Below the pieces are notes generated by a model. The model was not told the DNA's origin. It was given only the letters and a program-made list of their open reading frames with translations, and did no database searches. A program made the translations under genes and the position numbers. This document shows positions 22,688-23,068 of a stretch of DNA of 64,000 nucleotides, piece after piece. Origin of the DNA: Desulfurococcaceae archaeon (lineage in GTDB: Archaea; Thermoproteota; Thermoprotei_A; Sulfolobales; Desulfurococcaceae); assembly GCA_023269825.1 (NCBI GenBank), contig JAGDWI010000001.1:678492-742491 (forward strand). The letters run 5' to 3'. The first letter of the stretch is position 1, and each line of letters begins with the position of its first letter.

Positions 22688-22714
22688 TTGATTAGTTTTT
22701 AACCTACTAATCAA
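22688..22714 (+). promoter_or_regulatory. Perfect 9-bp inverted repeat flanking a TATA-like box
   Basis: TTGATTAGT (22688-22696) and ACTAATCAA (22706-22714) are perfect complements separated by TTTTAACCT. The TATA-like TTTTTAAC is in the middle, about 26 bases before the 5' end of the C/D box RNA at 22729. It could be an operator or, less likely, a terminator hairpin of the macro-domain gene; no T-run follows it. Confidence 0.5.
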
Positions 22715-22728
22715 GTAAGTTTTACTAT

Positions 22729-22778
22729 GTGATGAGGCTTTTAGGCCACTGAATAGTGAGGAGGGATCAACCGGCTGA
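22729..22778 (+). ncRNA. C/D box guide sRNA, D guide predicted to target the 5' end of 16S rRNA
   Basis: All four boxes are in order: C box GTGATGA (22729-22735), 13-base guide, D' box CTGA (22749-22752), 3-base spacer, C' box GTGAGGA (22756-22762), 12-base guide GGGATCAACCGG, D box CTGA (22775-22778). The D guide is complementary to CCGGUUGAUCC (11 pairs plus one G-U), the universal start of archaeal 16S rRNA. By the box D plus five rule, the first U of GGUU would receive a 2'-O-methyl group. The D' guide (GGCTTTTAGGCCA) has no sure target. The RNA ends 5 bases before the start codon of the next gene. Confidence 0.87.
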
Positions 22779-22783
22779 TTCAC

Positions 22784-23068
22784 ATGGCTTATACATGGGA
22801 GCCTAAATGGGAGGTTTTCGAAGTAAACCTCGACGGAATAAAGTTTAAAACCTGTAGAGACAAAATAACTGGTTTAATAGCATGTCCTATATGTATACAT
22901 GCTGCATCTAGGTGCCTAGGGGAGCCAGAACCCCGAAACTATGTTTACGAAAACTCGTTTTTCTACTCCGCAGAAGATCTAATTAATCACATTAAAAACT
23001 ACCATATCGGTGAATTGAGGAAAAAACTAGAAAAACTACTCACGAAAACAAGTGAGGAAGAAGCTTGA
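22784..23068 (+). CDS. Small zinc-finger protein, unknown role
   Basis: 94 residues. ACPICIHAASRC gives a CxxC pair, and about 50 residues later comes HIKNYH, a spaced His pair, so a C2H2-type zinc site is likely. A helical, Lys-rich tail follows (ELRKKLEKLLTKTSEEE). The ATG lies only 5 bases after the D box of the C/D RNA, so RNA and gene share one transcript or the gene has its own leaderless start. Its last codons overlap the next gene (TTGA). It may bind nucleic acid, but this is inference from the finger alone. Confidence 0.75.
   Translation: MAYTWEPKWEVFEVNLDGIKFKTCRDKITGLIACPICIHAASRCLGEPEPRNYVYENSFFYSAEDLINHIKNYHIGELRKKLEKLLTKTSEEEA

Follow-up and report, generated by a model that had tools for sequence, protein, structure and literature searches.

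Positions 22729–22778 on the plus strand of the window, by which we mean the whole 64,000-nucleotide stretch of Desulfurococcaceae archaeon DNA that was analyzed, contain a motif of four boxes that can be read directly from the sequence in the order C, D', C' and D. The boxes enclose two guide segments, and a zinc-finger-like open reading frame begins just downstream. The features of the locus are as follows.

22730–22735, plus strand: C box TGATGA (GTGATGA from 22729), from sequence and conservation.
22736–22748, plus strand: D' guide GGCTTTTAGGCCA, 13 nt, with the core TTTAGGCC.
22749–22752, plus strand: D' box CTGA, from sequence.
Between 22752 and 22757, plus strand: D'-C' loop ATAG, 4 nt, from sequence.
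22757–22762, plus strand: C' box TGAGGA, which reads TGANGA across relatives.
22763–22774, plus strand: D guide GGGATCAACCGG, 12 nt, antisense to the 16S rRNA 5' end CCGGUUGAUCCU.
22775–22778, plus strand: D box CTGA, invariant in 8 congeneric genomes.
22784–23068, plus strand: open reading frame of 94 aa with its ATG at 22784, CPxC...HxxxxH, zinc-finger-like; a neighbor that lies outside the sRNA.

The box order RUGAUGA / CUGA / UGANGA-like / CUGA is that of archaeal C/D box sRNAs, and the spacing, with guides of 13 and 12 nt and a loop of 4 nt, agrees with the guides of about 12 nt and the short D'-C' loop of this class. Set against the organism's own 16S rRNA, the D guide also shows Watson-Crick pairing at its fifth position from the D box, and the genome encodes the corresponding machinery, with adjacent genes for fibrillarin and Nop5 and two L7Ae-family proteins. 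A loose C/D regular expression applied to both strands of the 64 kb matched at this site alone, and Markov-1 shuffled controls yielded a mean of 0.03 matches with the loose expression and 0.0 with a strict one. An Rfam search found no family above cut-off at the site. At a permissive threshold nearly all matches to the site were archaeal C/D sRNA models over the same coordinates, the best of them being sR1 with 22.8 bits against a cut-off of 45 (E 0.0004). RNA folding of the strand gave no signal (z -0.66), as expected for a C/D RNA.

A search of 7 further genomes of the genus found the same RNA in each of them. In the alignment of the 8 congeneric genomes, mean pairwise identity is 0.96 for the C box, 0.89 for the D' box, 0.90 for the C' box and 1.00 for the D box, with 0.95 for the D' core and 0.96 for the D guide, and it falls outside the boxes and guides: the 5' flank has 0.41, the D'-C' loop 0.40 and the spacer that leads to the ATG 0.36. 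Such conservation of boxes and guides amid divergent flanks is the pattern of a guide RNA. Among the relatives, the C box is degenerate in one (TGCTGA in G005), and the D' box reads CGGA in G001 and G002. Across the order, the C'-guide-D pattern, scanned with up to 2 mismatches allowed, was found in 59 of 147 genomes, and a reversed control pattern gave 1 match. The shortness of the boxes is the only point in favor of a chance motif, and against it stand the near absence of matches in the shuffles, the recurrence through the order and the conservation of boxes and guides, so that a chance origin is vanishingly improbable and was ruled out. The first-pass annotation had called a C/D box sRNA with all of its boxes here, and this is borne out by the four boxes and their spacings, their unique occurrence in the 64 kb and their conservation in the genus. 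As judged from the sequence, the locus very probably encodes a standard double-guide sRNA of the archaeal C/D box class, about 50–55 nt long, with the D guide directed to 16S U13 and the D' guide, less firmly, to C570.

A family search for 16S rRNA in the organism's own genome found none; a pattern search of the same genome located CCGGTTGATCCTG at bases 250–262 of contig C3. The edge of this contig is an incomplete 5' piece of the organism's own 16S, 265 nt long and scoring 185.5 bits to RF01959, and the C3 stretch, including the 16S leader, is 94.9% identical to that of the congener G007. On the minus strand of C3 (L162 455–556), about 190 nt upstream of where the 16S begins, there is a sub-threshold match to the H/ACA RNA Pab19 (RF02794; 40.6 bits against a cut-off of 55, E 3.9e-05). 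The 16S genes of four congeners (G007, G006, G004 and G005; L060, L063, L064 and L065) span 1.8–2.6 kb between the 5' motif and the 3' end and, given this length, carry insertions, probably introns, that differ between congeners.

The own 16S fragment contains CCGGUUGAUCCUG, so that the alignment of the guide to the organism's own 16S, which had been proposed as a check, came out in favor of the pairing. The D guide GGGATCAACCGG forms 11 Watson-Crick pairs and 1 terminal G-U pair with CCGGUUGAUCCU, and the pairing score of 23 was matched by no shuffled guide out of 300 and by a single one out of 1000. No comparable site for the D guide was found elsewhere when the 16S and 23S rRNAs of relatives were scanned, and the next-best N-plus-five site was much weaker. 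Counting back from the D box, the fifth base of the guide is A22770; it pairs with the predicted target U, the first U of CCGGUU, which is nucleotide 8 when the Rfam 16S model is numbered from its start. We take nucleotide 8 to be E. coli U13, from alignment to the universal primer region. By the N-plus-five rule for the methylated nucleotide, as described in the main text of Dennis et al. (2015; PMC4644070), 2'-O-methylation is predicted at this first U (16S nt 8, E. coli U13). It had earlier been proposed that the D guide pairs with the conserved start of 16S and that the first U of GGUU is its target; the first proposal agrees with the pairing to the own 16S, the conservation in 8 genomes, the recurrence in other lineages and the sR14 copy described below, and the second is supported by the N-plus-five rule applied to the own-16S pairing. 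On these sequence grounds the sRNA would almost certainly direct a methyl mark onto the start of the small-subunit rRNA. The main text and tables of Dennis et al. (2015; PMC4644070) make no mention of the 5'-end U13 site or of this sRNA.

The own 16S fragment ends before the C570 region, and the pairing of the D' guide was therefore judged on the 16S of relatives. The core TTTAGGCC, which is constant in the genus and also found in Thermogladius (it reads TTTAGGTC in G001 and G002), probably pairs with 16S GGCCUAAA (E. coli 567–574, target C570) and fits the 16S stretch GGGCCUAAAGC (E. coli 566–576). The fit spans 11 bp for the guide of G004 and G006 and only 9 bp for the guide in the window, whose best 16S score was matched by 130 of 1000 shuffles and is not significant alone. 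A slightly better fit, of 10–11 bp, is seen between the guides of G000 and G007 and the 23S rRNA of G007 near nt 607 (CGGCCUAAAAGG), and a 23S target in place of 16S C570 would account for it. That 23S site is variable in the genus (UAAAA, UGGAA, UGAAA), whereas the core TTTAGGCC is as fixed as the invariant 16S site; the G004 and G006 guide matches 16S over its 11 bp; and the D' guide of another genus (G010), the unrelated-looking GGGCCCGATAAG, fits 16S nt 560–571, next to the C570 place, with a score reached by 7 of 1000 shuffles. Pairing of GGGCCCGATAA partner guides with 16S helix 3 was also considered, and it was dropped because nt 560–571 fits better in G010 (11 paired positions). Since the 23S site varies within the genus and the G010 guide fits the neighboring 16S, the 16S site is preferred over the 23S site with modest confidence; the 23S target is rather unlikely, and the D' guide probably, though weakly, targets 16S near E. 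coli C570.

The zinc-finger-like reading frame downstream has no Pfam match and is conserved in 27 of 31 genomes, so that it is no pseudogene. With the D box ending at 22778 and the ATG at 22784, the earlier observation that the RNA ends 5 bases before this start codon holds. The D box stands 5–12 nt from the start of the reading frame in each of the 8 congeners, and in G016 the gap is about 11 nt. Among other genera of this family, the distance upstream of the frame ranges from about 0.2 kb (G011, G014) to 1.1 kb (G010, G013), while the sRNA of G018 is on the opposite strand and that of G025 about 40 kb away, so the close spacing is fixed within the genus and not across the family. C/D sRNAs that overlap or abut the 5' ends of genes are known (PMC7994747), and in a reporter the downstream gene was expressed less when a C/D gene overlapped its 5' end (Tripp et al. 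2017, as cited in PMC7994747); on this precedent, competition between maturation of the sRNA and translation of the zinc-finger gene is plausible. The same reporter effect and the constant spacing in the 8 congeners would also suit a cis leader, in which the conserved stretch is an L7Ae-bound k-turn that controls translation of the zinc-finger gene and not a guide that acts in trans. In such a leader, 12 nt of guide complementary to 16S would be superfluous, and boxes and guide persist in the other genera where the sRNA is distant from the gene or on the opposite strand; a purely cis-regulatory role is disfavored on this last ground and is very unlikely.

On the other side of the sRNA, the upstream gene in the window encodes a macro-domain protein and ends about 100 nt before the sRNA. 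In G001 (L015 1259–1456), a 65-aa reading frame runs into the sRNA, with its TAG stop inside the D' guide (TTTTAG). At positions 22688–22714 of the window, a TATA-like TTTTTAAC some 27 nt ahead of the C box is flanked by the arms of a perfect 8-bp inverted repeat, TTGATTAG...CTAATCAA; the repeat is not evident in the alignment of the congeners.

The D guide extends well beyond the genus. An exact pattern scan of named archaeal genomes matched 61 contigs, which come from Desulfurococcales and other Thermoproteota, Bathyarchaeota, Wolframiiraptor, Culexarchaeum, Methanomethylicota and Thermococcus. The Thermococcus match links the RNA in the window to sR14 (Rfam RF01145, Pyrococcus/Thermococcus), which belongs to the same class. 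The copy in Thermococcus paralvinellae (L069), which scores 52.4 bits to the sR14 model, above the cut-off of 38, has the same guide GGATCAACCGG beside a D-type box and for this reason the same predicted 16S target. The guide occupies a different half of the RNA, lying between C and D' in the Thermococcus copy, where the other guide is unrelated, and between C' and D in the window. Against RF01145 the RNA in the window scores 12.5 bits, below the 38-bit gathering score, and aligns from 22752 on. T. kodakarensis sR14 is among the C/D box sRNAs that have been identified (PMC9014305). The novelty of the RNA is thus low, as its class is known and its guide, by sequence, is already represented by the Thermococcus member of Rfam sR14.

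While the guide to the 16S 5' end is fixed across lineages, the partner guide changes. The partner is directed to helix 27 (CAAGGCUGAA, E. coli ~899–908) in Bathyarchaeota, in Culexarchaeum and probably in Methanomethylicota, to 16S ~813–825 in Wolframiiraptor and to 16S helix 3 in G027; that of G016 has no 16S match. Partner guides for helix 27 fall on its loop and on the arm opposite to that bound by eukaryotic U3 snoRNA, and they were not found in the genus of the window. A shared partner, TTCAGCCTT(G/A)G, stands beside the 5'-end guide in Bathyarchaeota, Culexarchaeia and Methanomethylicota (loci L071, L076, L078, L109, L120, L112, L110, L117 and L129) and fits helix 27 CAAGGCUGAA where a 16S sequence was available. 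Guide swapping and movement of such a kind is described in the main text of Dennis et al. (2015; PMC4644070), and the combination of a fixed 5'-end guide with swapped partners makes a clean example of guide module exchange. The dual guides presented there (Neq sR17, Pca sR53) share with the RNA in the window its architecture, the N-plus-five rule and the use of two guides on sequence-distant sites within the 16S core.

By analogy with the family, the C/D and C'/D' boxes would fold into a k-turn and a k-loop to which L7Ae, Nop5 and fibrillarin bind. The D guide, with its demonstrated complementarity, would pair with the first bases of the own 16S, and fibrillarin would 2'-O-methylate the uridine opposite guide base 5, counted from the D box; less firmly, the D' guide would pair with 16S at E. 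coli 567–575 and lead to methylation of C570. Because helix 1/central pseudoknot and helix 19, where the two sites are located, belong to the central core of the small subunit, binding would in addition keep their strands apart during folding, a chaperone role already proposed for such RNAs. The RNA might even bind the 16S 5' end chiefly as a folding chaperone and delay the formation of helix 1 and the central pseudoknot, with methylation secondary or absent. The D guide does cover the 5' strand of both elements, the partner guides elsewhere lie near them (helix 27 in Bathyarchaeota/Culexarchaeum, helix 3 in G027), and such roles are proposed for dual guides in the main text of Dennis et al. 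(2015; PMC4644070). All sequence features that methylation requires are nonetheless present, namely a canonical D box, perfect pairing at and around position 5 and a fibrillarin gene, and the partner guides vary by lineage, some having no 16S match (G016); a chaperone role is in any case compatible with methylation, and as the main role it is unlikely.

In common with what is predicted for the RNA in the window, U3 snoRNA works as a C/D-type RNP and pairs at the extreme 5' end of the small-subunit rRNA, in its case with 18S nt 9–16; it also pairs with helix 27, on the 5' arm (PMC5354517). U3 is longer and binds the 5' ETS, unlike the RNA in the window, and methylation by U3 has not been shown so far (PMC8162545). 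The 50-nt motif with two ordinary guides lacks the 5' ETS domain and the B/C and C'/D motifs of U3, the Rfam search gave no U3 match at the site, nor was any homology to U3 seen; archaea are said to lack U3-like sRNAs (PMC3608112). The sRNAs with a 16S 5'-end guide could nevertheless be an archaeal functional counterpart of U3, in which one guide would hold the 5' strand of the central pseudoknot and a lineage-specific second guide a nearby core strand, namely helix 27 in Bathyarchaeota, Culexarchaeia and probably Methanomethylicota and the helix 19 strand in Desulfurococcales, so that formation of the pseudoknot would be timed as well as methylated. Such a counterpart is quite improbable, and the likeness, which is one of binding sites only, is offered as a lead and not as a claim.

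With this sRNA the archaeal methylation map gains a guide that is well supported and conserved broadly, together with a clear prediction, Um at 16S nt 8. The sRNA also raises the testable question of whether ordinary archaeal methylation guides may do what U3 does in eukaryotes.
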